This document shows positions 8,762 to 59,908 of a stretch of DNA of 64,000 nucleotides, in pieces (position 1 is the stretch's first letter; each line of letters begins with the position of its first letter). Under the pieces are notes generated by a model. The model was not told the DNA's origin. It was given only the letters and a program-made list of their open reading frames with translations, and did not search any database. The DNA is from Polystyrenella longa (lineage in GTDB: Bacteria; Planctomycetota; Planctomycetia; Planctomycetales; Planctomycetaceae), in assembly GCF_007750395.1 (NCBI RefSeq), contig NZ_CP036281.1:3867001-3931000 (forward strand), written 5' to 3'. The position numbers and the translations under genes are program-made.

Positions 8762-11218
8762 ATGCGATTCATTCAGCTATATCATCGCGAAAATATTCTG
8801 TCCGGTTTATTCGGTCTGGCACTGATTCTGTTAATCGGTTCTGTCGCCTCGAGTGCCGAGATCTCGGAAGCCGAGCGGGAGCAACATAAATTCTTCGAGA
8901 CGAACATCCGACCGCTCCTGGCGAAGCATTGTTATGAATGCCATTCCGCTAATGAGCAAAAAGGGAATCTGCGATTGGATCACCCATCCTTTCTGAAATC
9001 AGGAGGAGACAGTGGCGAAGTAATCGTGGCGGGCAAACCGGACGAAAGCTTGCTCCTGGAGGCGGTTCGATACGAGAGTTTTGAAATGCCGCCAGAGCAG
9101 CCGATTAGCGACAAAGAAATTGCGTTACTTGAGACCTGGATTAAACAAGGCGCCTACTGGCCGGAAGAAGCTCCGCCCAGTGCCACAGCAGGCGAGATCA
9201 CCGAGGAAGATAAAAACTGGTGGGCTTATCAACCAATTCAGAAACCAGACGTCCCGAATGCGGATACTTTTGAAAATGCGATTGATGCCTTCGTCGCCCA
9301 GAAATATTCAGAGCAGAAGCTTACCGCTGCCCCCCAGGCAGACAAAGCGACATTAATTCGTCGGCTCTACTTCGATGTCGTTGGATTGCCTCCGACACCG
9401 GAGGAAGTATCGGCGTTCGTGAACAGTGACGATCCCGCCGCCTATGAAAAACTGGTTGACCAGTTGCTAGCAAGTCCACAATACGGAGAGCACTGGGGAC
9501 GACACTGGTTGGATGTTGTGCGTTACGCCGACTCGGACGGTTGGCGAAAAGATGATTACCGCCCCTCTGCCTGGCGATACCGCGACTACGTTATTAAGTC
9601 GTTCAACGACGACAAACCTTACGATCAATTCATCCGTGAGCAGTTGGCTGGCGATGAAATTGCTCCTGAAGATCCAGAAGCATTAGCCGCAACCGGTTTC
9701 CTTCGGTTGGGTATTTACGAATACAACCAGCGTGATGCTGTCACTCAGTGGCATAATATTGTCGACGAGATTACCGATGTGACCAGTGATGTCTTTCTGG
9801 CCACCGGACTCGCTTGTGCCCGTTGCCACAATCATAAATTCGACCCACTGTTGCAGGCAGACTATTACAACCTGCGGTCGTTCTTTGAACCACTGGTATG
9901 GCGAGACGACGTTCCCTTCGCCACTGGCGAAGAGGTTGCTGCATATGAAGTGAAACAGAAAGCATGGGAAGAAAAGACAGCCGACATCCGTAAAGCGCTC
10001 AAGGATATTCAGCAAGAGTATCTCGATATCAGAACAAATCAGGCAGTCAGCCTCTTTCCGCTCGACGTGCAGGCGGCTTGGAAGACACCCACTGCAGAAC
10101 GGAACAGTTGGGAGCATCAACTGGCCTACATGGTGGATCGCCAGGCCGAAGACAAAAGGGCTTTGGCCAACTGGAATAACCTGAAAGGGGAGAAGAAAGA
10201 AAACTGGAAACGGCTTGATGCTGAACTTAAAAAGTTCGACAAAATGAAACCGCAGCCGCTCCCCTCACTCCCCACTGTCAGTGACGCACCGGGCGAAGTC
10301 AGCGAAACCAGAATTCCGGACAAATCCAATTCCGATACCTTTTCGCCTGCCTACCTGACAGTTCTGGGGGGTGAAGTTCCCGAAATTAAACCCACTGCGC
10401 AAAGACCGGAATCATCGGGACGTCGCACCGCACTCGCAAACTGGATTGCCGATCCGAGTAATCCAATCACCACGCGTGTGATGGTGAACCGAGTCTGGCA
10501 GTACCATTTCGGGCGGGGGATCGTCTCCTCACCTAATGATTTCGGGCAACTGGGTACTAAACCGTCGCACCCCGAACTATTGGACTGGCTCGCTTCAGAA
10601 TTCATTGAGAATGGTTTACACCTGAAACCTCTTCATCGGATGATTCTGCTTTCAGACACGTATCAGCAATCGGCATTTCATCCCGAGGAAGATCAATACG
10701 ACTTAATCGACCCGACCAACATCTACCTGTGGCGATCGCACATTCGCCGATTGTCGGCGGAAGAGATCCGTGACTCGATGCTGGCTGCGACAGGAGAACT
10801 TGATTTACAACAGGAAGGTGAAGGAATTAAAGGGGAACATAATCGTCGTTCGATATACTTCCGCGTTTTGCGAAACAGCCCTGTTCCATTTCTGCATACA
10901 ATGGGTACACCGGACGGCATCAGAAGCGCCCCAACTCGATACATTGCGACGACGGCACCACAGGCGTTATTAATGCTGAATGGTGAGTTCACCTATGAAC
11001 GTGCGCGTAAACTGGCTGAACGGTGGAAAGAAATTAGTGACCACACTGCCTTCATCGATCAAGTCTTTATCTCGCTCACAGGGCAAACTCCTACAGAGTC
11101 GCAACTACAGCAGGGATTGCAATATCTTTCCACTGGCGACGAAGCAGATCTCAATGCACGGCGGACCGACTTCTGTCATGTGTTACTCAACTCCAATCTG
11201 TTTCTGTACGTGGAATAG
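8762..11218 (+). CDS. Exported planctomycete cytochrome c / DUF1549 / DUF1553 protein
   Basis: 818 residues with an N-terminal signal segment (about 12-32). The PSCyt1 haem-binding domain (about 45-135) carries CYECH at 57-61. DUF1549 (about 165-370) has a second CXXCH, CARCH at 352-356. A variable linker with a coiled-coil-like region (about 395-500) leads to DUF1553 (about 540-790), with the family segment TRVMVNRVWQYHFGRG. The family is abundant in planctomycetes and nearly always next to a DUF1501 gene, as here. A role in extracytoplasmic redox or polysaccharide catabolism is often suggested, but the reaction is not established. It lies 80 bases after the FecR-like gene, so probably in the same operon. 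Confidence 0.93.
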   Translation: MRFIQLYHRENILSGLFGLALILLIGSVASSAEISEAEREQHKFFETNIRPLLAKHCYECHSANEQKGNLRLDHPSFLKSGGDSGEVIVAGKPDESLLLEAVRYESFEMPPEQPISDKEIALLETWIKQGAYWPEEAPPSATAGEITEEDKNWWAYQPIQKPDVPNADTFENAIDAFVAQKYSEQKLTAAPQADKATLIRRLYFDVVGLPPTPEEVSAFVNSDDPAAYEKLVDQLLASPQYGEHWGRHWLDVVRYADSDGWRKDDYRPSAWRYRDYVIKSFNDDKPYDQFIREQLAGDEIAPEDPEALAATGFLRLGIYEYNQRDAVTQWHNIVDEITDVTSDVFLATGLACARCHNHKFDPLLQADYYNLRSFFEPLVWRDDVPFATGEEVAAYEVKQKAWEEKTADIRKALKDIQQEYLDIRTNQAVSLFPLDVQAAWKTPTAERNSWEHQLAYMVDRQAEDKRALANWNNLKGEKKENWKRLDAELKKFDKMKPQPLPSLPTVSDAPGEVSETRIPDKSNSDTFSPAYLTVLGGEVPEIKPTAQRPESSGRRTALANWIADPSNPITTRVMVNRVWQYHFGRGIVSSPNDFGQLGTKPSHPELLDWLASEFIENGLHLKPLHRMILLSDTYQQSAFHPEEDQYDLIDPTNIYLWRSHIRRLSAEEIRDSMLAATGELDLQQEGEGIKGEHNRRSIYFRVLRNSPVPFLHTMGTPDGIRSAPTRYIATTAPQALLMLNGEFTYERARKLAERWKEISDHTAFIDQVFISLTGQTPTESQLQQGLQYLSTGDEADLNARRTDFCHVLLNSNLFLYVE

Positions 11219-11250
11219 ACAAAACTTCATTCCCTCCAATATCAATGTTT

Positions 11251-11332
11251 GAACCCATCCTGAAACCCGGTTTAGGCTTTATTCAAAGCTGTAAAACAAG
11301 AGCGAATTTGACTCATCAAAAGGATTCAGGAT
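11251..11332 (+). repeat. Dispersed ~80-nt intergenic repeat, copy B
   Basis: Sits between the DUF1553 and DUF1501 genes. Its first 22 bases are identical to those of copy C at 30265. The outer arms ATCCTGAA (11257-11264) and TTCAGGAT (11325-11332) are perfectly complementary. An inner hairpin is GCTTT-ATTC-AAAGC. The element would sit in the intercistronic leader of the DUF1501 mRNA. Confidence 0.7.
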
Positions 11333-11343
11333 CACTTAATATT

Positions 11344-12789
11344 ATGTCTGGACTGAGAACAATGACTTCATCACTATGTCAAAAGGCCGGAGTTCCTCAC
11401 CACGAACAACTGAATTCCCGCCGTGATTTTCTCACGAAGGCCGGAATGGGGTTTGGGGCACTCGCTTACAGTGGATTGGTTCAAGGGGCAACTGCCCCGA
11501 TTCCTACAGCCCATCATTTTGCTAGAGCGAAAAGCGTCATTTTCCTGTTCATGGAAGGGGGCCCCAGCCAGCTCGACACATTTGATTACAAACCATTACT
11601 AAACAAGCTGGCGGGCCAACCTCTGCCCGAGAGTTTTCAGGAACCCATTACGGCGATGGGTGAAAAAGGTTCTCCCCTGTTAGAGGCTCCCCGCACCTGG
11701 ACACGTCACGGTGAAAGCGGTCTGTGGGTTTCTGAGTTATTACCAAACATCGCGCAGCACGTCGATGACCTGGCTGTGATCCGCTCCTGCTGGGGAAACG
11801 GAATTAACCATGCCGGCGGAATGATGCAGATGCATACGTGTACTCCGGTTGCCGGTCGACCCTCTCTCGGTGCCTGGGTGACTTATGGTCTCGGTTCTGA
11901 CAACGAAAACCTGCCCGCCTATGTGGTGATGAAAGATGCGAACAAATCGCTGGCGAGTGGTGCCCGCAATTACGGTTCCGGATTCATGCCCGCCACCTAT
12001 CAGGGAACATTGTTTCAAAATAAAGAAGGGGAACCCCTTGCGAACCTCTCCATTAGAGAAGGCGAGTCACCCGCAAGTCAGCGTGAAAAACTGGAACTGC
12101 TGCAACAGTTCAACCGCGAACACTATGCTGAACGGACTCAGCAATCCGAACTCGACGCTCGCATTCGAAGTTATGAGCTGGCGTTCAAAATGCAATCTTC
12201 CGCACCCGAAGCAGTCGCCTTAGAAGAAGAGACTGCGGAAACGTTGGAGTTGTATGGAATCAATAACAAGGAATCCTCCACTTACGGAAAACAGTGTCTC
12301 CTGGCCCGGAGACTGGTGGAACGGGGAGTTCGTTTTATCCAGATGTATCATGGAACGGGCAGCCGCTGGGATTCGCACTCCAAAATCGAAACGAATCATC
12401 CCAAACTGTGCCGTGAGATGGACCAACCCGTGGCAGGTTTGCTGACTGACCTCAAACAACGAGGACTTCTCGATGATACCCTCGTCATCTGGGGAGGAGA
12501 ATTCGGCCGTACGCCGATGAGCGAACAGGGCAATGGACGGGACCACAATCCGACCGGCTTCACTATGTGGATGGCGGGAGGTGGAGTTCAAGGGGGACAA
12601 ACCATCGGTGCCACTGATGATCTTGGACTGTACGCTGTGGAAGACAAAATGCATGTCAGCGACCTGCACTCCTCCATTCTGCACCTGCTCGGTCTCGATA
12701 ACATGGAATTGACATTCGACTATCAGGGACGACCTGAACGTCCGACTATTAACGAAGGCCGATTTAATCGCAAATTGATCGGCGGCTGA
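11344..12789 (+). CDS. Tat-exported DUF1501 protein
   Basis: 481 residues from the ATG at 11344. Longer frames begin inside the repeat element and are unlikely. The twin-arginine signal is RRDFL at residues 26-30, followed by a hydrophobic segment ending near 45. DUF1501 belongs to the alkaline phosphatase/sulfatase-like superfamily. Visible hallmarks are FMEGGPSQLDTFDYKP, the WGGEFGRTPMSE segment and the late DLHSSILHLLGLD. It is the usual partner of DUF1549/DUF1553 proteins. Substrate unknown. Export folded through Tat fits the two tatA genes at 36 kb. The ATG at 11362 is an alternative start. Confidence 0.92.
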   Translation: MSGLRTMTSSLCQKAGVPHHEQLNSRRDFLTKAGMGFGALAYSGLVQGATAPIPTAHHFARAKSVIFLFMEGGPSQLDTFDYKPLLNKLAGQPLPESFQEPITAMGEKGSPLLEAPRTWTRHGESGLWVSELLPNIAQHVDDLAVIRSCWGNGINHAGGMMQMHTCTPVAGRPSLGAWVTYGLGSDNENLPAYVVMKDANKSLASGARNYGSGFMPATYQGTLFQNKEGEPLANLSIREGESPASQREKLELLQQFNREHYAERTQQSELDARIRSYELAFKMQSSAPEAVALEEETAETLELYGINNKESSTYGKQCLLARRLVERGVRFIQMYHGTGSRWDSHSKIETNHPKLCREMDQPVAGLLTDLKQRGLLDDTLVIWGGEFGRTPMSEQGNGRDHNPTGFTMWMAGGGVQGGQTIGATDDLGLYAVEDKMHVSDLHSSILHLLGLDNMELTFDYQGRPERPTINEGRFNRKLIGG

Positions 12790-13180
12790 CGGAAAATGTC
12801 GATTCCCGAGGCATGAAAAGCAATGAAATGCCAGTTCTACTGACTAAGAACGCCCCCCCTATGCGTTAAAGCAGTAGCGTACTCCCTAACCGACAGACTT
12901 CACGAAGTTCGCCGGACTGGGGAGGGTTGCTTAAAAAAGAGGTCGCGCGACGAGTTTTTGTTGCCCGCGCCGAAAGGGATGCGATATGATAAGTTAGGTA
13001 AACTTACAAAATTTCGCATCAACACCTGACGCGGCCCGGATTGATTGGAATCGCGATCTCCCAGACTCCGCTAAGGTAAAGCCCGTTGCAGAATCGAATT
13101 GCCCCAATGGCAATTTCTGTCCGAGGCGTTGTTTCACTCCTTGCAGATGTACCAAAGTTACACATTAAGGACCTGATTTC
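12790..13180. other. Intergenic region, DUF1501 to Gly-rich protein
   Basis: No gene seen. It contains GTCGCGCGAC (about 12952-12961) flanked by an A tract and a T tract, which may terminate the DUF1501 transcript. There are also a small TAAGTT/AACTTA hairpin near 12995 and an AATTGCC/GGCAATT hairpin near 13100. AAGGA lies 9 bases before the next ATG. Confidence 0.5.
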
Positions 13181-14065
13181 ATGTCAAAACTATCTGGTCA
13201 CTGGACTTTCTCGCTGGTCGCTCTTTTTGCCGCCACATCGATGGTTGTCGCGGGCACAGAAGCATTTGCCGCAGGAAAGAACAAACTCGACATCGTTAAG
13301 AATTCGGAATACGACCCGAACGCGGAACAGGTTGAACTGTTTAATGCCATGGAAGATGGCAAAGTCGAAAGCAAGTTGGTTCTTAAAGACTCCAAAGGGG
13401 GCCGGCTGCTGGTGACGAATAACACCCAGCAACCACTAAGCGTTTCCATGCCCAAAGCAATGGTGGGAGTTCAAGTTCTTAAGCAGCTCGGTGGCCTTGG
13501 AGGCCAGTCAGGCGGCCAAGGTGGCTTCGGCAGTGGAGGTCAGGCTCAGTCTACTGGCGGTGGGATCAACGGAGGCACTGGTGGAAACACAGGTGGCTTG
13601 GGAGGTAATAGTGGTGGCTCACTCTTTTCGATCCCCGCGTCCAAAACACTCTCTCTGGATTTCAACAGCGTCTGTCTGGAACATGGTAAAGCAGAACCTG
13701 CTTCTCGCATGGAATACACAGTCGCTCCGGTAGCAACTTTTTCTGAAGATCCGGTCCTGGAACGCTTGTTGGTGAATGTCGCCGAACAGCGAATTGATAA
13801 TCACGTCGCACAAGCCGCAGCATGGCACCTGGCCAGCGAAATGAGTTGGGGAGACCTGGCTGCAAAATCTGTGAAACATCTCGGTGGATTGCCAGCAACG
13901 AGTTACTTCTCTCGTGCTCAGCTGTCGAAAGCGCAGCAGGCTGTCAGTGTCTTGACCTTCCGTGTCCAACAGGAAGCCGAAGAGAATAAGAACAATAGCG
14001 AATCCGAAGAAGTATCCGAGACACCTGAACCGGCACCGGCTGATCGAGTTTCTCTTGCACGTTAA
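13181..14065 (+). CDS. Secreted protein with Gly-rich linker, unknown function
   Basis: 294 residues. A clear signal peptide (1-31, ending EAFA-AG) is followed by a small domain (about 35-100), a low-complexity Gly/Gln/Ser linker (about 103-147), and a second domain (about 150-265). The end is acidic, rich in Glu and Pro. The second domain includes a helix-rich part with HVAQAAAWHLASEMSWGDL. I do not recognise a family. The Gly-rich stretch may vary in length among relatives because its DNA is repetitive. A 14-bp-stem terminator follows 60 bases after the stop, so the gene is probably transcribed alone. Confidence 0.85.
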   Translation: MSKLSGHWTFSLVALFAATSMVVAGTEAFAAGKNKLDIVKNSEYDPNAEQVELFNAMEDGKVESKLVLKDSKGGRLLVTNNTQQPLSVSMPKAMVGVQVLKQLGGLGGQSGGQGGFGSGGQAQSTGGGINGGTGGNTGGLGGNSGGSLFSIPASKTLSLDFNSVCLEHGKAEPASRMEYTVAPVATFSEDPVLERLLVNVAEQRIDNHVAQAAAWHLASEMSWGDLAAKSVKHLGGLPATSYFSRAQLSKAQQAVSVLTFRVQQEAEENKNNSESEEVSETPEPAPADRVSLAR

Positions 14066-14125
14066 TGAAACAGATTCGGACTAGCTCTACCAGCTGGACT
14101 GAGATCCACAGTTAAAGATAAGCAT

Positions 14126-14166
14126 GGCCGCCGTGATCGTTCATCTCGATCACGGCGGCCAGTTTT
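14126..14166 (+). terminator. Intrinsic terminator after the Gly-rich protein gene
   Basis: A perfect 14-bp stem, GGCCGCCGTGATCG (14126-14139) with CGATCACGGCGGCC (14147-14160), has a 7-base loop and is followed by AGTTTT. The stem is very strong and the T tract short. Confidence 0.7.
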
Positions 14167-14170
14167 GTAT

Positions 14171-14176
14171 AGGGGG
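14171..14176 (+). promoter_or_regulatory. Ribosome-binding site that selects a GTG start
   Basis: AGGGGG lies 6 bases before the GTG at 14183, in frame with the nucleotidyltransferase. The other candidate, TTG at 14165, overlaps the terminator tail and has no such site. Confidence 0.55.
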
Positions 14177-14182
14177 CTCCCT

Positions 14183-14845
14183 GTGGCGGATTCATTTCAT
14201 CTCTCCGGCGATTCCTCCCTCCCTGCTCTGCCCGCTGCCGCTCGGATTGTGCTTCTCCCTGCCGCCGGACGAAGCCAGCGAATGGGCGATCACAAGCTCT
14301 CGCTCCTACTGGGTGGCAATACACTCTTGGGAGAAGTACTCGCTAATTATCTGGCGGCACAAGTCGACCTCATTGTGATTGTACGTCGTCCCGATGACGA
14401 GAAGATTCCCTCATTACTTCCTCCCTCCGATCGCGTCGTTCTCGTCACGCCAGAATCGGCACCGGAAGAGATGAAGACCAGCTTGACCTATGCTCTAGCC
14501 GCCATCAGACAATTGGCTATGGAGACATCGCAGCATCGATATCTTCTCAGTCCACCCGACATGCCCTTCCTGCGGCCTTCCCTCATTGAACTTTTACTGG
14601 CGGAATCGGGCTCTCATAGTGACGTTCTGATCCCCACTTTTGCAGGACGCCGGGGGCATCCGGTGATTTTCTCTGATCGAATTGCCCGCCTGATGGATGC
14701 GATACCACCGAACGAAGGGTTGAACTCTCTCTGGAAACGAGAAGACGTTCAAATACGCGAAATCCCGGTCGATAACGACGAAATCTTATTCGATGTCGAT
14801 ACGCCGCAGAATTATGCAGAAGCACTGATTCGGTGCGGAAAATAG
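14183..14845 (+). CDS. MobA-like NTP transferase family protein
   Basis: 220 residues from a GTG chosen on its AGGGGG site. The nucleotidyltransferase signature is LLPAAGRSQRMGDHKLSLLLGG near the N-terminus, a loop that binds the NTP. The metal-binding SPPDMPFL lies in the middle, and GRRGHPVIF and DVDTPQNY near the end. This is the MobA-like family that includes molybdenum-cofactor nucleotidyltransferases (MocA/MobA). No molybdopterin genes are visible nearby, so the substrate is uncertain and a sugar-nucleotide role is possible. It sits alone between two terminators. Confidence 0.82.
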   Translation: MADSFHLSGDSSLPALPAAARIVLLPAAGRSQRMGDHKLSLLLGGNTLLGEVLANYLAAQVDLIVIVRRPDDEKIPSLLPPSDRVVLVTPESAPEEMKTSLTYALAAIRQLAMETSQHRYLLSPPDMPFLRPSLIELLLAESGSHSDVLIPTFAGRRGHPVIFSDRIARLMDAIPPNEGLNSLWKREDVQIREIPVDNDEILFDVDTPQNYAEALIRCGK

Positions 14846-15135
14846 CTTTTTCGGGAAAATATGGAAGCTGGGTTGGGACTTTAGCCTATTTTGTAAAAAT
14901 TTCCCTTTACACAAAATTTTGTTTAGATTATTTCCTCTTCTCACGCTGGAAACGCGTTCTGCCGTACCCGTTTTCTGTTCGTGAACCTCTCTTCCCCCCA
15001 ATGAACCCAGCTCCCGAATGGAAATCAATTTCGGGAAGGTAGACCTGTTTTTTTCTGCTTTCTCTTTTGATGAAACATTCGGTTTTGCGAGACTCTCGCA
15101 CTTATACGGCCTGTCTTCTGAAAGGACTCAAACAA

Positions 15136-15444
15136 ATGAAAAAAATTCTCTCATTGCTGATGGTTCTTCCACTGGTCTGGACTTTGACCGGTTGCTGCTG
15201 CCTGGGTGGCGGTAGTAGCGGTTGCAACTCCTGTGGAACGAGCAGCTATTACGGACCAACCTCTTACTCTGGTGGTGGATGCTCTACGGGCAACTGTGGA
15301 GTGACTCAAACTTACCCCAGTGGAGCTATGAGCTATCCACAAGGAGCCATGATGGCTCCCATGGGTGCTCCAGCAACGGCTGCGTATCCAACGCAGACTT
15401 ACGCGACAGCATCTGCACCTCTGGAATCTCTGCCGACTTACTAG
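15136..15444 (+). CDS. Small Cys/Gly/Tyr-rich lipoprotein
   Basis: 102 residues from the ATG at 15136; AAAGGA is 9 bases upstream. The lipoprotein signal ends in LTGC, with Cys20 as the lipidated residue, directly followed by further cysteines (CCC then a Gly/Ser loop with more Cys). The rest is low complexity: Ser/Tyr/Gly, then Ala/Met/Pro repeats. It is likely anchored in a membrane with a flexible surface tail. No enzyme motif is visible. Such Cys-rich small lipoproteins are common in planctomycetes, but I know no assigned function. Followed by a hairpin-rich region and a terminator. Confidence 0.75.
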   Translation: MKKILSLLMVLPLVWTLTGCCCLGGGSSGCNSCGTSSYYGPTSYSGGGCSTGNCGVTQTYPSGAMSYPQGAMMAPMGAPATAAYPTQTYATASAPLESLPTY

Positions 15445-15871
15445 TCGGTGGTTGAGTCCTGATGGAAAAACATTCGTTGGTTGACGTCGTGAATACCTTG
15501 TCAAACAGGTTGAACATGGTATTCCTTCCGTTCCATTTTAGTTCGAGCATTTTCAATAATGCTCGTGGAACGAATTGGTATTGATGCCATACGAGTAATA
15601 AATATGATGTCTTCAATGGACGGGCTGAGTCTTTTGGGGAGACAACTGCGTATATCTCCGAGTTGAGCACCGTTTTTGAGTGCTCAAAAGCTTCACGTTC
15701 ACAGGATGGAACGTGAAGCTTTTTTTATTGATACCGCACACCAGAATGACTGATCGAGAACCATCAGGTTCACGAAAACTCCGAGTGCGACTAATCCACA
15801 GGCATCCTACCTTAGCCAACCTCCGTACAAGTTATTGACACCCTGAGAATTGATTTTAAGAGGAACTCTCC
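15445..15871. other. Hairpin-rich gap, lipoprotein to glmM
   Basis: No gene seen. Three hairpins follow one another: CGAGCATT (15544-15551) with AATGCTCG (15558-15565); GAGCAC (15665-15670) with GTGCTC (15680-15685); and a terminator at 15686-15727. A long untranslated 3' region or a small RNA is possible. AAGAGGA 7 bases before the ATG at 15872 is the ribosome-binding site of the next gene. Confidence 0.55.
15686..15727 (+). terminator. Intrinsic terminator
   Basis: A perfect 15-bp stem, AAAAGCTTCACGTTC (15686-15700) with GAACGTGAAGCTTTT (15709-15723), has an 8-base loop and is followed by further T. The A and T tracts on both sides make it potentially bidirectional. Confidence 0.85.
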
Positions 15872-17221
15872 ATGAGTCAGCGTATCTTAAGTATTTCCGG
15901 TTTACGTGGAGTTGTCGGTGATGGTCTCGACCCGGAATACATTGTTCAGTTCGCTGCAGCTCTGGGCACGATGATCGATGGTGGAAAAGTAATCCTCTCG
16001 CGAGACGGGCGATCCACGGGCCTCTGGATTCGCGATGCGGTCGTGTCGGCACTGCAGGCGACAGGCTGCGACGTCATCGATGCTGGAATCGCTTCAACAC
16101 CTACTTGCGGTGTTCTCGTAAAACATTACCACGCCCAGGCGGGGTTACAGGTTACGGCTAGCCACAATCCAGTGCAATGGAATGGTTTAAAACCTTTCTC
16201 ACCCGAGGGATCGGTATTCGATCAAGAAACAGGAGATCGCTTTCTCAAATTACTCAACGGACGAGAATTCAATTACCGTAGTTGGTCGGAGATGGGCCAT
16301 GTGGAAATGCTGCAAGATTCCTGGAGATCGCATTTCGACAAAATTCTCTCGTTGATCGACATCGAGTCGATCCGGTCACGAAAGTTTAAAGTTGTCCTCG
16401 ACTGCAACCATGGTGCGGGCGCTGTGCTTGGTCCATTGCTGTTAAATGAACTTGGCTGCGAAGTCAGCCTGATCGGAGGAACTCCCGACGGGCAATTTGA
16501 ACATACACCAGAGCCCACTGAAGAAAATTGCCGTTCAGTCGGCGAAGCTATTGTTGCTGCAGGGGCAGATATTGGATTCGTCCAGGATCCAGATGCGGAC
16601 CGACTGGCGATCATCGACGAGAAGGGCACATATATTGGCGAAGAATTAACCTTGGCTCTGTGTGTCGACCATGTTCTTCCCCAGCGACCAGGACCCGTCG
16701 TCGTTAATGGTTCCACCAGTCGGGTGACGGCGGATATCGCTGAGAAGCATGGCTGCGATTTTTCTCGATCCTATGTAGGAGAAGCGAATGTCGTCGCTCA
16801 TATGCGAGAAGTGCAGGCAGTTATTGGAGGGGAAGGCAATGGAGGATTAATCGATCCCAAAATCGGTTGGGTCCGGGATAGCTTTCTGGCAATGGCTTAT
16901 GTGCTGGAGCATCTTTCGGAACGGACACTCTCACTTTCAGAATGGGTGGCCAGCCTGCCGTGCTATGCGATAATCAAGGACAAAATCGAATGCGCGCCGG
17001 AAGCAGTCCCGGTTGCGGCAGCGGCGCTCAAGAAAGCTTTTCCCGATGCTCAAGTTTCAGAAGGAGACGGACTCCGACTGGATTGGGAGAAAAGCTGGGT
17101 CCAGGTACGAGCCAGCAACACGGAACCGATCATGCGTATCATCGCAGAAGCGCCGGAAGCAACCGCCGCTCAAGATCTGATTCGGCGTTCAAAATCCGCG
17201 ATCATGGCAGCGTTTGGATAA
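15872..17221 (+). CDS. glmM: Phosphoglucosamine mutase-like phosphohexomutase
   Basis: 449 residues, normal for GlmM. The phosphoserine is Ser97 in TASHNP. The metal-binding loop is DPDADR, and the sugar-binding loop is GEGNGG. A C-terminal phosphate-binding ASNTEP is present. It interconverts glucosamine-6-P and glucosamine-1-P for UDP-GlcNAc, or acts as a phosphomannomutase. The family is close to GlmM, but the exact sugar cannot be settled from sequence alone. AAGAGGA supports the start. Convergent with the minus-strand membrane-protein gene 67 bases downstream. Confidence 0.88.
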   Translation: MSQRILSISGLRGVVGDGLDPEYIVQFAAALGTMIDGGKVILSRDGRSTGLWIRDAVVSALQATGCDVIDAGIASTPTCGVLVKHYHAQAGLQVTASHNPVQWNGLKPFSPEGSVFDQETGDRFLKLLNGREFNYRSWSEMGHVEMLQDSWRSHFDKILSLIDIESIRSRKFKVVLDCNHGAGAVLGPLLLNELGCEVSLIGGTPDGQFEHTPEPTEENCRSVGEAIVAAGADIGFVQDPDADRLAIIDEKGTYIGEELTLALCVDHVLPQRPGPVVVNGSTSRVTADIAEKHGCDFSRSYVGEANVVAHMREVQAVIGGEGNGGLIDPKIGWVRDSFLAMAYVLEHLSERTLSLSEWVASLPCYAIIKDKIECAPEAVPVAAAALKKAFPDAQVSEGDGLRLDWEKSWVQVRASNTEPIMRIIAEAPEATAAQDLIRRSKSAIMAAFG

Positions 17222-17288
17222 ACTGCTATGTCCCACCAAGTGCGCTAAGCAGAGTCGACCTGCTTGCCAATGGCAGCCGCCCGCGAAT

Positions 17289-18380
17289 TCACACATCGTT
17301 GCGAAGACTGCTCAATTTTCGCTGCAGCAACTCAGCGACATAAGTTGCGTCTTGTCGCTTTGCCATCCAAATAAAGAATTCTTTTTTCGGAGTCGACAAA
17401 GTCGCTACACAATTGTGGTCCGTATTTTCGACGTCATTAATCCGCACGCGTTCTTCTCGCTCAACAGCTAGACGAACCTCGATTCCAATGATTTCGGAGG
17501 TAGGAACCGACGACGTTACGCGACAGGGGCCAAACAAGGATGTCTGTCGAAGTTGCAACTCGGTCAGTTCCACAATGTTCATTCCCCGAATCACCCATAC
17601 GGCCATGAGTAGGCACACACTAGCGGGGACAACGTAGTAGGGCCACCACCAGTTAAATTCGAATCCCAGGAAGACAGGTATCATTCCCAGCGTGATTCCT
17701 AGGATCATGCCCCCCGCCTTGGCGCCGCCGGTAGCTGCCGTCGGAAGTTGAATCCGTAAGCCGTTGGGTTGCATTTCCTCAACTGTCACTGTTGTGGGGG
17801 TTGCTCTTTCGAGAATATTCGAACGTAGCGCTAACTGCTCAGAATACGCAGGATCAGATTCCGCTCCCAAGAACTCATTAATCTTATCGACAATCCAGTT
17901 CTGATCGCTTTTTATAAGAGAATCGCCGAAACTTACTACGCCCTCAACGCCCTGAACTTCGACACGATAATCTGGGCCTTCATCGATAGCGACAAGATCG
18001 GCTCGCGAATTGACATTCAGAGTCAATTGTTTTGTTCGGACCCAGCCGAACAGATTGCTTCTGACGACTGCGCGTTCTGATTCCAGGAAAATGATGACGG
18101 TTTCGAAGCACTTTTTGAACCAGTATCCGAGCAGGCACAATCCAGTGATCAGCATTACACCCATCGCTATGACGAAAGGCCACACCTGCCAGATCCCAGC
18201 AATCGTAACGCATAAGAAGATTATCAGGCCGAGCCATTTCAAGGAAAGTTCCAGCAAAAACAAGCTACGAAGTCCGGCACCTGGAAGCCGAAACAGAATG
18301 GTAGTCTCATCCGGCTGCGTAAAGACTATGCGCGATCTGTCGGGAGGTGTTGCCGCTGGTGAGTCGCTTGAGGTCGTCAT
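17289..18380 (-). CDS. Membrane protein with PH-like halves, unknown function
   Basis: 363 residues. Two paired hydrophobic segments (about 45-90 and 220-265) each precede a beta-rich soluble stretch. The pattern of hydrophobic pair then short beta domain recalls bacterial PH-like membrane proteins. The soluble halves contain VEVQGVEGVVSFGDSL and GPCRVTSSVPTSEIIGIEV. No catalytic motif is visible. The start ATG is followed by a short Ser/Pro/Thr-rich cytoplasmic tail. It closes a minus-strand run of small and membrane proteins extending back to 20027. Function unknown. Confidence 0.8.
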   Translation of the reverse strand: MTTSSDSPAATPPDRSRIVFTQPDETTILFRLPGAGLRSLFLLELSLKWLGLIIFLCVTIAGIWQVWPFVIAMGVMLITGLCLLGYWFKKCFETVIIFLESERAVVRSNLFGWVRTKQLTLNVNSRADLVAIDEGPDYRVEVQGVEGVVSFGDSLIKSDQNWIVDKINEFLGAESDPAYSEQLALRSNILERATPTTVTVEEMQPNGLRIQLPTAATGGAKAGGMILGITLGMIPVFLGFEFNWWWPYYVVPASVCLLMAVWVIRGMNIVELTELQLRQTSLFGPCRVTSSVPTSEIIGIEVRLAVEREERVRINDVENTDHNCVATLSTPKKEFFIWMAKRQDATYVAELLQRKLSSLRNDV

Positions 18381-31706: not shown

Positions 31707-31791
31707 CGGAGGGGGGGGGATTCGAACCCCCGGTAGGTTGCCCTACACTGGTTTTCGAGACCAGCACAATCGGCCACTCTGTCACCCCTCC
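31707..31791 (-). tRNA. tRNA-Ser (anticodon CGA)
   Basis: Read on the minus strand: acceptor GGAGGGG pairs with CCCCTCC, the anticodon loop CTCGAAA is on a CTGGT/ACCAG stem, and anticodon CGA reads UCG. A long variable arm (class II) is typical of serine. The T arm is CGGGGGTTCGAATCCCCC-like. Discriminator G; CCA is not encoded. 85 nt. Confidence 0.95.
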
Positions 31792-49314: not shown

Positions 49315-49385
49315 TACCCGGTAGTGTAATGGTAACACAACAGGTTTTGGTCCTGTTATTCTAGGTTCGAGTCCTAGCCGGGTAA
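49315..49385 (+). tRNA. tRNA-Gln (anticodon TTG)
   Basis: Acceptor TACCCGG pairs with CCGGGTA, discriminator A. D arm GTGT/ACAC, anticodon stem ACAGG/CCTGT with loop TTTTGGT (anticodon TTG reads CAA). T arm CTAGG-TTCGAGT-CCTAG. CCA is not encoded. A run of six T follows directly (49386-49391) and may terminate transcription. Confidence 0.95.
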
Positions 49386-53277: not shown

Positions 53278-56200
53278 ATGTCCCCAAAAGCTAACCTCCA
53301 ACAACCTCTTGCAGTCGTGGGGATGGCTTGCCGGTTGCCGGGCGCGGACGGATTGGATGCCTACTGGGAATTGCTCAAAGAGGGCCGCAGCGGACTGAGC
53401 CAATTCCCACCAGAACGCGTAAACCCAGACCTCTACTTCGATCCGACTCCGGGGAAGTTTTGCAAAACCTATACTCAGGCGGGGGGTTTTGTTCCTCCGC
53501 GACCCGTCGATCAGGATATTCTCCCAATCGATCCGGAACGACTTCGCCAATACGATAAGGCACATCAGACGATGTGCGAAATCGCGGCTCAAGCCTGTAT
53601 TGATGCCGGTTACGACCCGCTCAATCTGCCCCATTCGCGGACGGCGGTTTACATCGGTAACTCTTCTGGCGGAAGCGATCTTATCTATGAATTGATGATG
53701 ACCGATTACGCCGCTGCCGCTGCCGGATTTCTGGAGAACATCCCGGACTTCAACAACTTACCGGTCGAAAACCAGGCTTACATCCAGGAACGGTTGATCG
53801 AATCGATTCGTCGCGAGCACACTCGCCGACAGGATTCTCCCGTTCGCGACACCACTGCAGGCGTTGCCGCGACCATGATCTCCAGCTTGTTCAATCTGAC
53901 CGGCCCGACTGCCGTATGCGACGCGGCGTGCGCTTCGGCGACGATTGGTTTGGAACTGGCGGCGCAAGCGTTGTTCCACAACCGAGCAGAAATGGCGATT
54001 GTTGGAGGGTGCTCATTTCGCAAATGGTATGAGATGGTGGTGATCGCCCAGGCAGCGACGTTGAGTACTCAGGGAGTTTCGTGTCCCTTCGATGCCAGCG
54101 CCGACGGACTCGTTGCGGCCGACGCCTATGCCGCAGTCATCGTGAAAACGCTGGACCGGGCTCTGGCCGAGGGAGACGAAATCAAAGCGGTCATCCGGAA
54201 TACCGCTCTCTCATCAGATGGTCGGGGAAAAAGCTTCTGGGCGCCTCGTAAAGAAGGGCAGATTCTGGCCATTCAACGAGGTTATACGTCGGGTATCGAT
54301 CCTAACCGTTTGCAATACATGGAAACCCATGCGACATCCACTCAGATTGGTGACGAAACCGAAGTTCAGAGTTTGATTGAATCGATCGGGGATCGTGTTC
54401 ACCATCGATTGCCGATTGCTAGCGTGAAGGCCAACATCGGGCATAGCCTGGAAACAGCCGGGCTTTCCAGTTTGATCAAAACGATTCTGGCTATACAGAA
54501 TCAAACGATTCCACCCGCTGTGAACTGTCAACAGGTTTCTCCGAAAATCAAATGGGACGAAATTCCGTTCTCCGTGCAACAGCAGGCAGAACCCTGGGAA
54601 GAACAACCCGATGGATCGCCTCGGATGGCGGGAGTGGACGCATTCGGGATCGGTGGTGTGAATACCCATGTGATCGTGGAAGAATACCGCACAGGAACAG
54701 AGTACAACTGGAATAGTGAAGTCTCCGACAAAACCGAGAAGGAACCAATCGCCATTGTGGGTCGGGGGGCATTGTTCGCAGGGGGGTACTCTGTCAAAGG
54801 TTTTGCCGACGTCATTAAATCGCATGCTTCACAAATTGCTCCCATTCCAGAACATCGTAAGTTGCGGGGGCAGTCATCGAAGTACAACGAAGCTGGTTTT
54901 CTGGCCGATTATGAATTCGACTGGAAACGCCACAAGGTTCCACCCAAGTTGCTCAAACAGGCCAACCCACTTCAGTTTGCTTTGCTGGATGCGGCCCAGC
55001 AGGCACTCGAAGAAGCGGGATATGAAGAGCAGGACTTCGACCGACAAGAAGTCATCACAGTCGTCGGATCTATCTTCAACAACGATTACGATCTGGATGT
55101 GTACTGGGGTTTGTTCTACCCGGAACTCTGCCAGAAGCTGACTCCCACGTTGAAAGAGCTGGGACTCGACGAACAGCAGGTCGCCGATTTTCTGGAGAAT
55201 TTCAAACAACAGGTAATCAATCTGAAACCGGAGATGCTGGATGATACTGGGAGCGCATCGGCAAGCACTCTCTCGACCCGCATCGCCAAGAACTTTGATT
55301 TGATGGGGGGAGCATTCAGCCTGGACGCGGGAGAAGCCTCTTCGCAGGCCGCGTTACTGGCTGCCGTTGATTTACTCCGCTCCGGAAAGTGCGAACGTGT
55401 TGTTGTTGGTGGCGCGCAGCGCTGGATCGAAACATCGCAGAACGTGGACACGTCGCAGATTCCTCTGGGTGAAGGGACGGGCGTTATTGTTCTGCAACGA
55501 CTCTCCGATGCAGAAGCGCAGCAGCGGACCATCTTCGGGTTAATTACGGACGTCGAGGTTGTCCGAACTGACGTCGAACCCGACGAGGAACTGACGACTA
55601 ATAACAGCCTCACTCGGCAGATTGGTAATACGCTGGGTGCCTCGGGGATGGCGACCTTATTATATTCCACCTTATCCGACACTCCGGTGCAGGAGATTAA
55701 AACAGTTAATCGTCGTGGGTATTACGAAGAACAACCGGCGTGCTGGACAACCCACTATGCCCGTTATGAGCAGATTAATTCACCATCCCAGGAGACCATT
55801 TCGGAGCCCGTTGAAATGAATGGACATGATCCTGCTGAGACTCCGTCGATCAATGGATTAGCTCCCCACTTCTCGACCTTCGTCCAGTTCATGATGATCC
55901 AAACCGGTTGCCCCATCAACGTGATTCAACCTAAGGCCTACCTTGAAGGAGATCTGCGTCTGACGGCCGCTGCCAAACGAAGCGTGTTGCAGGAACTATT
56001 CATTCGGATGAATCATCATCTCGAACCGGTAATGCTCTATACTTGCGCCCAAAAACTGGAAACGGTGAACGACGTTTGGAATTACCTTGAAGAACTGGAA
56101 GAGCGGCCTTACGAAAATCTGCTTCCCGGACTGATTCCGACGACACCCACACCTGCGAATCAGGAAACTCCAGTAAGTGATGCGGTAGCTCAGCCAGTGA

Positions 56201-58302
56201 ACTATGGTGACGTTATCATTCAGGAAAATGAATCAATTACAGAGACAGCCCCCCCTGCTAACTCGACTCTGCGTTTACTGGAACGAACAAGACCTGCCGC
56301 ATTGTCCTCGTCGGACGATTCCGTACCGACGTTTTCTGGAGCGACTATCGTCGTTGGCTCGGGCAAGACGACCGACTTGCTGGTAGAAAAAATGGCGGAA
56401 GCGGGAAATGTTGTTTACCGCTTGGAGAGTGGACAATCCTCCGCCACCTGGATGTCGCAGTGGGAAAAGATTGAATCACAAACTCCTGTACTGCAACTCA
56501 TTCTGACAGAAGGAATTGCCGAACGTCCCGAGGGGAATAACTGGTCGGCAGAGATCAATGCGATCAGCGAACTGATCAACTTTACTTCCCATTGGTTGAA
56601 CCATCGCCAGACACAAGGCAACCTTTCCGGAGCGACGTTGGCCTTGCTCCTCCATATGGGTGCTGATTTTGGTCAAGGGGGACAGTTCCCTTCGATTCCA
56701 TCTATCCTGCTGAGTAGTTTCACGGAAACGCTCTTACCGCACGCTGTTGCGGGCCTGCGTCTGAAAGTCATCGACCTGTTTGAACGGGAACCTGCTCCGA
56801 TGATCGTCAAAGAGGTGATGCAGGAATTCGGCAGTCAGGACCGTGAGACCCATGTGGCTTTCCTGCGCGGCGGTCGATCGATTCGGTCAACCACGGTGCA
56901 GATTATTCCCGAGATGCGGGACGAAATTGAAGTTTGGTTCCCCCATGGGGCCTTTAATGAAAACCTCCTGGAATTCCTTCCGTTGGCCCATCATGCCGGA
57001 CCCAACACGCAACCACAGGGATTGTGGCTGGGGCTGGAACAAATCAACGATTACACCGATTTAAGTACACTCCTCGATGAAATGCAGACGATTTTGTCTG
57101 AAAATCCGACATTGCGAAAAGTCGTTATCCTTCTTCCCGTCGAAGGAAACAACTTTATCAGACTGCTGGCAGCCAGAACCTTGTTCGCTTATTGCCAACT
57201 GTTCGCGACTTCTAACCCGCAATTGACAGTCTCGCTGATCCAGTTTGATATTGGTCTCCCTAACCTGAGCGAGCTTCTCGTTTCCGATGCCAACCAGGCA
57301 CACTCGGAAATCGTTCAACTGACCTTGAATGAGTCAGGAGCCTACACCGAACAATATCAGGATGCCCTGCTCAGTTACGAGTACCAGGTACTGGAAACAC
57401 TCACGCGTCCCACAGCGACCCGCTCGGAATTGAATGAGGGAATCTGTTCGATTCAGTATGATCCCCGTGTCGATCCGTTCTTGAGGGGGCATCTGCATGA
57501 AGAGATCCCGCTGTTGCCAGCCGTCATGGGCATTGAAACCTGTGCGGAAGCGGCGTCCGCCGTTTCGGGAGGACAACCCGCGGTTGGAATACGCAACTTG
57601 GAACTGGTCAATGGATTCCGTATGGCTTCTCCCAAACCGCATCATGCCGTGGTCGAAGTCAGCCCCACTGATCAACCCGGAATTCTTCATTGTGAACTCA
57701 AAGGTGAGTTTTACGATAAAGCGGGAAGGCTAAAAGATTCCCGACGACTCTTCCATCGCGTGCAGGTCCTCACGGGTGAGAATAATCGAGTGGCCCTTCC
57801 TCCGTTCAGCGGTGACGTCCCGCAAGATGATTGGATGGCGGTTCAGTATAGTGACAACTCACAGGAACGGATCGAAGGGCATAGTGGCCCCGTCTGGTAT
57901 GGCCCTGAATTAAGAACGTTAAAATCGGTACGATACCTACTGGAAGCAAGCGACATCTGGGGATGCTTTACGGCTCCGGATTCTTCCGAGTTGGCAGGGC
58001 AACGTACAGGCTCGCGCTGGCAGACACCGGCGGCGGTACTGGATGGCACTTTATACCTGTTTGAGTTTCTGTTCAGTCGGCTCACGGGCACGTCGCAATT
58101 ACCTCACTTTATAGGGCAACTCGATTTCGGTCGTTTGCCAGTTCCAGGCGAGCAATTGATAGCCTACGGTCAATACCTGCGGCGGGAAGACCGACATTTG
58201 TTAGTCGAGTTCGACGTCTGGGGCGCCGATGGGACTGCCATCTACTCCTGTCGCGACTGTAAAATGGTCGATTTGAATATCACGGTTGGTGGTACTAAGT
58301 AA
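53278..58302 (+). CDS. PUFA/PKS-like megaprotein: KS, inactive KS, ACP-like, KR-like, DH
   Basis: 1674 residues. KS1 (about 10-470) has an intact triad: Cys218 in DAACAS, His351 in ETHATST, His389 in NIGHSLETAG. A second ketosynthase-like domain (about 488-835) has Glu686 where the Cys should be and Asn784 in place of the second His, like a chain-length factor. An ACP-like segment (about 862-945) seems to carry Ala for the phosphopantetheine Ser. A reductase-like, probably non-catalytic region (about 1015-1380) precedes a double-hotdog dehydratase (about 1385-1665) with His1405/His1407 and Asp1589. No acyltransferase or active ACP is visible. It resembles PfaC-type lipid synthase subunits; acyl carrier, loading enzyme and product must come from elsewhere. 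Confidence 0.88.
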   Translation: MSPKANLQQPLAVVGMACRLPGADGLDAYWELLKEGRSGLSQFPPERVNPDLYFDPTPGKFCKTYTQAGGFVPPRPVDQDILPIDPERLRQYDKAHQTMCEIAAQACIDAGYDPLNLPHSRTAVYIGNSSGGSDLIYELMMTDYAAAAAGFLENIPDFNNLPVENQAYIQERLIESIRREHTRRQDSPVRDTTAGVAATMISSLFNLTGPTAVCDAACASATIGLELAAQALFHNRAEMAIVGGCSFRKWYEMVVIAQAATLSTQGVSCPFDASADGLVAADAYAAVIVKTLDRALAEGDEIKAVIRNTALSSDGRGKSFWAPRKEGQILAIQRGYTSGIDPNRLQYMETHATSTQIGDETEVQSLIESIGDRVHHRLPIASVKANIGHSLETAGLSSLIKTILAIQNQTIPPAVNCQQVSPKIKWDEIPFSVQQQAEPWEEQPDGSPRMAGVDAFGIGGVNTHVIVEEYRTGTEYNWNSEVSDKTEKEPIAIVGRGALFAGGYSVKGFADVIKSHASQIAPIPEHRKLRGQSSKYNEAGFLADYEFDWKRHKVPPKLLKQANPLQFALLDAAQQALEEAGYEEQDFDRQEVITVVGSIFNNDYDLDVYWGLFYPELCQKLTPTLKELGLDEQQVADFLENFKQQVINLKPEMLDDTGSASASTLSTRIAKNFDLMGGAFSLDAGEASSQAALLAAVDLLRSGKCERVVVGGAQRWIETSQNVDTSQIPLGEGTGVIVLQRLSDAEAQQRTIFGLITDVEVVRTDVEPDEELTTNNSLTRQIGNTLGASGMATLLYSTLSDTPVQEIKTVNRRGYYEEQPACWTTHYARYEQINSPSQETISEPVEMNGHDPAETPSINGLAPHFSTFVQFMMIQTGCPINVIQPKAYLEGDLRLTAAAKRSVLQELFIRMNHHLEPVMLYTCAQKLETVNDVWNYLEELEERPYENLLPGLIPTTPTPANQETPVSDAVAQPVNYGDVIIQENESITETAPPANSTLRLLERTRPAALSSSDDSVPTFSGATIVVGSGKTTDLLVEKMAEAGNVVYRLESGQSSATWMSQWEKIESQTPVLQLILTEGIAERPEGNNWSAEINAISELINFTSHWLNHRQTQGNLSGATLALLLHMGADFGQGGQFPSIPSILLSSFTETLLPHAVAGLRLKVIDLFEREPAPMIVKEVMQEFGSQDRETHVAFLRGGRSIRSTTVQIIPEMRDEIEVWFPHGAFNENLLEFLPLAHHAGPNTQPQGLWLGLEQINDYTDLSTLLDEMQTILSENPTLRKVVILLPVEGNNFIRLLAARTLFAYCQLFATSNPQLTVSLIQFDIGLPNLSELLVSDANQAHSEIVQLTLNESGAYTEQYQDALLSYEYQVLETLTRPTATRSELNEGICSIQYDPRVDPFLRGHLHEEIPLLPAVMGIETCAEAASAVSGGQPAVGIRNLELVNGFRMASPKPHHAVVEVSPTDQPGILHCELKGEFYDKAGRLKDSRRLFHRVQVLTGENNRVALPPFSGDVPQDDWMAVQYSDNSQERIEGHSGPVWYGPELRTLKSVRYLLEASDIWGCFTAPDSSELAGQRTGSRWQTPAAVLDGTLYLFEFLFSRLTGTSQLPHFIGQLDFGRLPVPGEQLIAYGQYLRREDRHLLVEFDVWGADGTAIYSCRDCKMVDLNITVGGTK

Positions 58303-58486
58303 CCCTTCTTCCACGAAATATCAAATGGATTAATGAGCAACCTGCTGACGGGGTGGGCATTGCTTCTCTGGATCAGCTATCCTTGTGTGGATATTGGAGC
58401 ATCGTTTCTCAGGGAACTATTTTCGTTCCAACAAATTGGACCTGGGGAAATGTGACTTCGCCTCGCAAGGACAAGATCGGTCTATC

Positions 58487-59908
58487 GTGAACTGGTATCT
58501 TTTATATCTGATCAGTGAATGGGTGTTACGAATCATGATGATTCCGGTGGTCACCCACCGCCGCAGACCCAACAGCGCGATGGCATGGCTGCTGATCATC
58601 TTCTTTGAACCCTGGTTTGGGTTTCTAATTTACGTCTTGATCGGCGAGAACCGTTTGCCACAGCGCCGCATTCGCAAACATGATCGGCTGCTGGCGAAAC
58701 TGGAAACCTTAAGCCGACGCTTCCGTGATCATCCCCAGGTGATGAAGCCGGACTATGACTCTCGATTACAGTCGGCCATTGATCTGGCAGAACGTCTCGG
58801 TTATATGCCGATTCTGGGGAACAACTCGGTCGAGTTGCTTGCAGAGACCGACGAGACGATCAATCGCTTGATTGCCGACATTGATCAGGCCCAAAAACAC
58901 GTCCATATGCTGTTCTACATTTATCGGGACGATAAGACGGGGAACAAAGTGAACGATGCTTTGGCCCGCGCTGTCGCACGAGGAGTGAAGTGCCGCTTGC
59001 TACTGGATGCGGTCGGATCGTCGGACTTTCTCAAACATAATCAACAGGAATTGATCGACGCAGGTATCGAAGTTCATGCCGCTTTGCCTGTGCAGTTCTT
59101 TCGCCGCAAGGCAGCGCGGATCGATTTACGCAATCACCGTAAAATTGTCGTGATTGACGGATCAATTTCCTACACAGGTTCTCAGAATATCGTGGATTCT
59201 GACTATGGTCTAAAAAAACTTGCCTGGCACGATTTAATGATTCGTATGGAAGGGCCAGTGACCATCGAATTACAAGCTGTCTTTCTGACGGACTGGTATT
59301 TCGAAACAGATGATATTCTGGAGGGAACGGATATTTTCCCCGATCCGAAATCGGCCGGATCGACTCCGATTCAGACATTACCCAGCGGCCCCAGTTATCC
59401 CACTGAGAATCATCAACGGATGGTGCTCTCAATGCTGCATGCCGCCCAGCACCAGGTTACGATCACGTCGCCTTACTTCATTCCAGACGAAGCCTTGCTG
59501 CAGGCGATTGAAGTCGCTGTATTACGCGGAGTGGAAGTGACTTTGATTCTTCCCGAAAAGAGCGACCAGGTTATCGTCGGCGCCGCAGCACGAGGATATT
59601 ATGGAGTATTATTGGAGATGGGAGCCCACATTTATCTTTATCAACCGGGGCTGCTGCATGCTAAAACGATTACAATCGACTCCAGTATCTGCATGATCGG
59701 TTCCAGCAATTTTGACATCCGTTCGTTCGAATTGAACTTCGAACTGACCATGATGCTGTACGGCAAACCGATCAACATGGAGCTGAAAGAGCTACAGGAT
59801 AAATACCTGAGTCTCTCCGAAAAACTGGAACTGAGCAGGTGGAACAGGCGGCCTTACTATCAGCGTCTGTTTCAAAATGTCATGCGGCTCTTCAGTCCGT
59901 TGCTATAA
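58487..59908 (+). CDS. cls: Cardiolipin synthase (phospholipase D family)
   Basis: 473 residues from GTG at 58487; the frame is open further upstream, but the expected start (NWYLLYLISEW, then a second helix ending IGENRLP) begins here. Two N-terminal membrane helices precede two HKD motifs: His217 in NHRKIVVIDG and His391 in LHAKTITIDS. This is the ClsA/B-type enzyme that condenses two phosphatidylglycerols. It lies 184 bases after the ketosynthase gene on the same strand, a hint, not proof, of shared lipid metabolism. An ATG start further upstream is less likely. Confidence 0.88.
   Translation: MNWYLLYLISEWVLRIMMIPVVTHRRRPNSAMAWLLIIFFEPWFGFLIYVLIGENRLPQRRIRKHDRLLAKLETLSRRFRDHPQVMKPDYDSRLQSAIDLAERLGYMPILGNNSVELLAETDETINRLIADIDQAQKHVHMLFYIYRDDKTGNKVNDALARAVARGVKCRLLLDAVGSSDFLKHNQQELIDAGIEVHAALPVQFFRRKAARIDLRNHRKIVVIDGSISYTGSQNIVDSDYGLKKLAWHDLMIRMEGPVTIELQAVFLTDWYFETDDILEGTDIFPDPKSAGSTPIQTLPSGPSYPTENHQRMVLSMLHAAQHQVTITSPYFIPDEALLQAIEVAVLRGVEVTLILPEKSDQVIVGAAARGYYGVLLEMGAHIYLYQPGLLHAKTITIDSSICMIGSSNFDIRSFELNFELTMMLYGKPINMELKELQDKYLSLSEKLELSRWNRRPYYQRLFQNVMRLFSPLL

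Follow-up and report, generated by a model that had tools for sequence, protein, structure and literature searches.

An acyltransferase-less KS-CLF-DH protein as a probable second subunit of a planctomycete secondary lipid synthase

The window analyzed here, the whole stretch of 64,000 nucleotides, covers positions 3,867,001-3,931,000 of the single 6.1-Mb contig of a planctomycete genome that is 99.95% complete. From 53278 to 58302 on the forward strand it contains one open reading frame of 1674 amino acids, which begins with ATG and has no internal stop; shuffling these bases 200 times gave no stop-free run longer than 277 codons, compared to 1674 here. A homologue in a congener shows 73% identity over the full length, and the neighboring reading frames on its contig are ordered like those of the window. 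The gene is called W below. The coordinates and domain order given in a preliminary description of this DNA agree with the reading frame and with our alignments. The features are as follows.

53278..58302, + strand: whole gene (W), a KS-CLF-pseudoACP-pseudoKR-DH subunit of 1674 aa (open reading frame; full-length congener homologue)
53278..54702, + strand: first ketosynthase (KS1), with Cys218 (codon 53929), His351 (54328) and His389 (54442) intact (Pfam PF00109/PF02801; alignment of all members)
54730..55827, + strand: chain-length-factor-type KS (CLF), with Glu686 (55333) at the Cys position, Asn784 (55627) at a His position, and a shortened C-terminal half (alignment; phmmer against 6riw)
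55885..56172, + strand: pseudo-ACP, with the attachment Ser replaced by Ala897 (55966) (hhalign to real ACPs)
56278..57387, + strand: pseudo-KR, with the structural half kept, the catalytic half mostly deleted, and neither NADPH motif nor catalytic Tyr (hhalign; alignment)
57415..58275, + strand: DH of the double-hotdog type, with His1405 (57490) and Asp1589 (58042) kept (weak PF21089; alignment; DH tree)

By reading-frame coordinates, a PLD-family, cardiolipin-synthase-like gene (58385-59908, + strand) lies 82 bp downstream of W, and the congener contig (L012) has a 474-aa reading frame at the corresponding position. No PLD-type gene lies beside the W homologue of another genome, G160. Rfam models match the window only at two tRNA genes, 49315-49385 (+) and 31707-31791 (-).

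Pfam models recognize a KS in the W protein at 260 bits, a KS C-terminal domain at 98 bits, and weakly a KS C-terminal extension. The DH matches PF21089 weakly, below threshold, and the ACP-like and KR-like parts are unmatched by Pfam's models. Aligned by hhalign, these two parts match real planctomycete ACPs (97.3%, E 6e-11) and the planctomycete KR region (100%, E 5e-56), with a negative control at 0%. Residues 870-965 of W align to the real ACPs of a cluster at 3.26 Mb in the same genome (LEGDLRLTAAAKR vs LEADLGIDSIKKAQ). In the alignment, the attachment serine is absent also from the pseudo-ACPs of the congener (G001), G160 and G021. The KR of G160 is full-length, yet has neither the NADPH motif nor the catalytic tyrosine any more. 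Copies from this genus and the G021 fragment retain the structural half but have almost nothing left of the catalytic one. A pseudo-ACP and a broken KR are seen in every copy of W long enough to show both. An acyltransferase (AT), a C45 domain and a second DH are all absent from the protein. An AlphaFold2 model of residues 860-1674, built from a two-row alignment, was unusable (mean pLDDT 32.7, pTM 0.23).

The catalytic residues of KS1 and DH listed above are all kept, and judged by these residues both domains look active, as the preliminary description had said of these two alone; the Ser to Ala897 replacement and the broken KR agree with it. It had also called the second KS inactive. The cysteine is indeed lost, but it is also missing from the aligned CLFs of planctomycete megasynthases, mostly in favor of Glu or Asp, and because the loss is common to them the domain is an ordinary chain-length factor rather than a freshly killed KS.

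Searches of relatives, 170 family genomes and 398 class genomes found the AT-less architecture of W in this genome (G000), G001, G160, and G021, where the copy comprises two halves at the ends of different contigs that we infer to form one gene. In G002 a contig end truncates the gene, so that only its N-terminal part is seen. Three genera, with five genomes among them (5 of the 170 family genomes), therefore have a W homologue. This patchy distribution, the missing AT, the dead ACP and the broken KR might describe a decaying relic, that is, a duplicated synthase heading for loss with no present function. We regard this as quite improbable: the reading frame is unbroken in G160 and the congener as well as here, the KS and DH residues are conserved, and the copies form a single clade across the three genera. 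Identity to the congener is 85% for KS, 79% for DH, 75% for CLF, 70% for pseudo-ACP and 59% for pseudo-KR, against 23% for a linker. Because dS is saturated between the congeners, selection was judged by these domain identities and dN only, in place of a codon-based test. By that measure every named part of W is constrained, KS and DH most of all.

In the KS tree, the five W copies form one clade (100/97), which is sister to planctomycete megasynthases with an ACP in cis and two DH domains (98/93). In the DH tree, four W copies form one clade (100/99), and the W domain groups with the first DH of those same megasynthases. Origin from the genome's own megasynthase was considered and rejected; a tree constrained to unite the g1 megasynthases and the five copies in a single clade is worse by 70.6 log-likelihood units (p-AU 0.0002). 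On this phylogenetic evidence, W descends from a planctomycete synthase of the cis-ACP, two-DH type. An ACP and a KR were present in its ancestor, because both persist as dead domains, and from the sister group it would also have had an AT, a C45 domain and a second DH. By KS and DH phylogeny W belongs among the planctomycete KS-CLF-AT-ACP-C45-KR-DH synthases. It lacks their AT, functional ACP (Ser to Ala) and functional KR (catalytic half lost), and is therefore a derived subunit, not a complete synthase of this group. The ACP-like and KR-like parts had been described as extras on a KS-CLF-DH plan. The hhalign results, alignments and both trees indicate instead that they are what is left of a complete synthase, rather than parts added to a PfaC scaffold.

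The preliminary description had observed that the domain order recalls the KS-chain-length factor-DH subunit of PUFA synthases. The order is the same, and phmmer matches residues 10-712 of W to the KS-CLF structure of Moritella PfaC (ORF10), 6riw. That W is a true PfaC-type subunit, an orthologue of the PUFA KS-CLF-DH protein with inserted domains, is nevertheless very improbable. In a KS tree with three references, Moritella PfaC, CurL and an ArsA-type synthase from Beijerinckia, the planctomycete KS domains, including that of W, form one clade (100/99) to which none of the three belongs; PfaC is represented there by one long-branched sequence from a printed PDB alignment. The phylogeny of KS1 that had been proposed as a check thus sets W apart from the single PfaC reference. 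In addition, the supposed inserts can be aligned with the planctomycete synthases' own ACP and KR, and a genome search with PF03060 as the query found no clear PfaD-type enoyl reductase, the best matches reaching only 34 bits.

Since W has neither an AT nor a working ACP, it needs carriers in trans. The preliminary description had said as much of the carrier, and the same holds for the AT; genome-wide profile searches give no AT, ACP or PPTase match within the window, in agreement with its report of no acyltransferase, functional ACP or phosphopantetheinyl transferase there. The genome search it proposed, for a partner with AT, ACP and KR, was successful. PF00698 finds only two acyltransferases over the genome, both malonyl-type, at 2.45 Mb and 3.27 Mb. 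The former lies beside KS and ACP genes and is taken as FabD-like. The latter sits inside a 2754-aa KS-CLF-AT-C45-KR-DH protein, the sole AT-bearing megasynthase of the genome. The cluster around it, at 3.264-3.277 Mb, has the order thioester reductase, 394-aa tandem-ACP protein, megasynthase, and FabL-like SDR. Two PPTases are encoded in the genome, neither of them in the window or in this cluster.

Planctomycete KS-CLF-AT-KR-DH synthases carry in mid-protein a C45/AAT-type Ntn-hydrolase domain (NF040521, 156 bits, cut-off 85). In L044 (G000:C1:3258000-3277999), it occupies about residues 1507-1841 of the open frame at 9598-17862, and it occurs also in L113, L051, L047, L112 and L118. At the probable nucleophile position, Gly-Cys is retained in G062, G034, G025, G117 and G205 and lost in G000, G002, G094 and G160. 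Where active, the domain might cleave the megasynthase into two parts, or move the product to an amine. A third KS-CLF protein of this genome, of about 802 aa (G000:C1:5660166-5662427; L045 10035-12443, - strand), stands alone without AT, ACP, KR or DH, and its flanking genes have no lipid-synthesis domains. The sole chalcone/stilbene-synthase-type (type III PKS) gene found in the genome is at G000:C1:408378-408773 (- strand). Members of the type III PKS family work with type I lipid synthases in the making of Azotobacter phenolic lipids (PMC3098273).

W and the 3.26 Mb cluster are unlinked in this genome, and the W copies of its congeners likewise lie apart from the cluster. In G160, the W gene is found 41 bp downstream of the pathway's SDR gene, on the same strand, and converges with genes for an ACP, the megasynthase, a PPTase, an ABC ATPase and an ABC permease. 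That SDR is 74% identical to the copy behind the megasynthase in this genome, and an SDR is present in nearly all megasynthase clusters fetched. In G021, the N-terminal half of W and a thioester reductase gene are divergently oriented, and an ACP-type gene comes after the reductase gene. Linkage to the partner genes of a KS-CLF (AT, tandem ACPs, KR) is therefore found in G160 and partly in G021, and the label "orphan" given to W fits only by distance, as homologues in these two other genera lie in or beside such a cluster.

All W-bearing family genomes have the separate-ACP clade of megasynthase: W occurs in 5 of about 10 such genomes and in 0/27 others (Fisher p 6e-4), in a test that ignores kinship and with G105 assigned to the separate-ACP group by identity alone. 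Counted by genus, the figures are 3/8 and 0/14 (p 0.04). Four genomes (G014, G018, G094, G141) have a separate-ACP megasynthase but no W copy that we could find, so W is accessory.

The unlinked position of W in this genus could point to a self-standing elongase, as could the PLD-family gene directly downstream, the similar-sized reading frame in the congener contig, and the AcpP-type and FabD-type genes present in the genome. W would then extend and dehydrate chains on the housekeeping AcpP of type II FAS, with malonyl from FabD, for longer or unsaturated membrane lipids, perhaps cardiolipin. We think this unlikely, because in G160 and G021 the homologues show linkage to secondary-lipid genes but none to a PLD gene, and because W descends from secondary lipid synthases having ACPs of their own.

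W is probably a second, AT-less KS-CLF-DH subunit of a planctomycete "secondary lipid" synthase of the PUFA/heterocyst-glycolipid-like kind, using the ACPs of the sister cluster in trans. In this scheme, the AT of the sister megasynthase would load malonyl units on the free-standing tandem ACPs (here those at 3.264-3.277 Mb), on which W would act in trans. Elongation would be split between the KS-CLF of the megasynthase and that of W, probably with different chain-length preferences. Beta-keto reduction would fall to the megasynthase KR or another reductase, dehydration to the DH of W, and enoyl reduction to the FabL-like SDR, while the pseudo-ACP and pseudo-KR may stay as structural or docking elements. 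The thioester reductase would release a long-chain aldehyde or alcohol, as its presence together with the SDR suggests, and the probable product is a long-chain alcohol or an alkyl chain. PfaA-KS and PfaC-KS-CLF of PUFA synthases work on the growing chain between them (PMC12895367; PMC13311796), and by analogy a PfaA/PfaC-like division of labor is the most likely role for W.

A further proposal, which we judge to be about evenly balanced, is that a PfaC-like, carrier-less KS-CLF-DH subunit evolved on a second occasion, when a whole cis-ACP megasynthase decayed and came to serve another megasynthase clade, the one with separate ACPs; selection would have retained its dead ACP and half-KR for docking or structure. 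If true, the two-condensing-subunit plan of PUFA synthases can come from decay of a complete megasynthase, given carriers on a separate protein. Intermediate stages of that decay would be visible, as a full-length dead KR in G160 and a half-deleted KR in this genus. W would also be a concrete test case for the remaining roles of pseudo-ACP and pseudo-KR domains in megasynthases, and an apparently orphan gene would be tied to a planctomycete lipid pathway for which we found no reported product in the open-licence literature.

Heterocyst glycolipid synthase, encoded in the cyanobacterial hgl island, makes a C26-C32 alkyl diol/keto-ol chain; the island includes HglC, which is KS-CLF-AT, together with TER, a PPTase and an ABC transporter. 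Compared by cluster contents, hgl and planctomycete clusters share KS, CLF, AT, ACP, KR, thioester reductase, PPTase and ABC transporter (PMC11804610; PMC3098273), but they differ in gene architecture. Secondary lipid synthases have been divided into types A-T (Shulse and Allen 2011), two of them, I and J, from planctomycetes; among the types described in the accessible part of PMC3098273, none pairs a separate tandem-ACP gene with an AT-less KS-CLF-pseudoACP-pseudoKR-DH subunit. W has the defining arrangement of the class, a KS followed by a CLF in one chain. The open-licence literature on planctomycete PUFA/hgl ketosynthases yielded nothing on the W protein, and a plasmid collection gave no match covering 80% of it, the best, at 32%, being to the KS-CLF region of a synthase from Beijerinckia. 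An undescribed lipid or polyketide pathway had been proposed. The pathway belongs to the known secondary lipid synthases (PMC3098273), and W is a form of that class; what stands is that we found no description of the subunit itself in open-licence literature. Trans-AT modular PKS, with AT-less KS modules, cis ACP and free-standing AT, was considered as a class for W and rejected, as W has no functional ACP and its KS groups with planctomycete KS-CLF synthases.

The nearest relatives of W in the KS and DH trees are the planctomycete KS-CLF-AT-(ACPn)-C45-KR-DH(-DH) megasynthases (L044; G062, G026, G034, G025, G030). W resembles them in KS-CLF order, CLF cysteine loss, ACP and KR positions, and DH, but lacks AT and C45, has a single DH, and has an inactive ACP and KR. 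PfaC, which is KS-CLF-DH-DH, resembles W as a KS-CLF-DH subunit with no AT or working ACP that relies on its partner's carriers. It differs in having two DH domains rather than one and no pseudo-ACP and pseudo-KR between CLF and DH, and in its separate origin by the KS tree (one PfaC). The SDR of the planctomycete pathway is FabL-like, and the PF03060 search gave no clear PfaD-type enoyl reductase. W is most likely comparable to PfaC in role and separate from it in origin.
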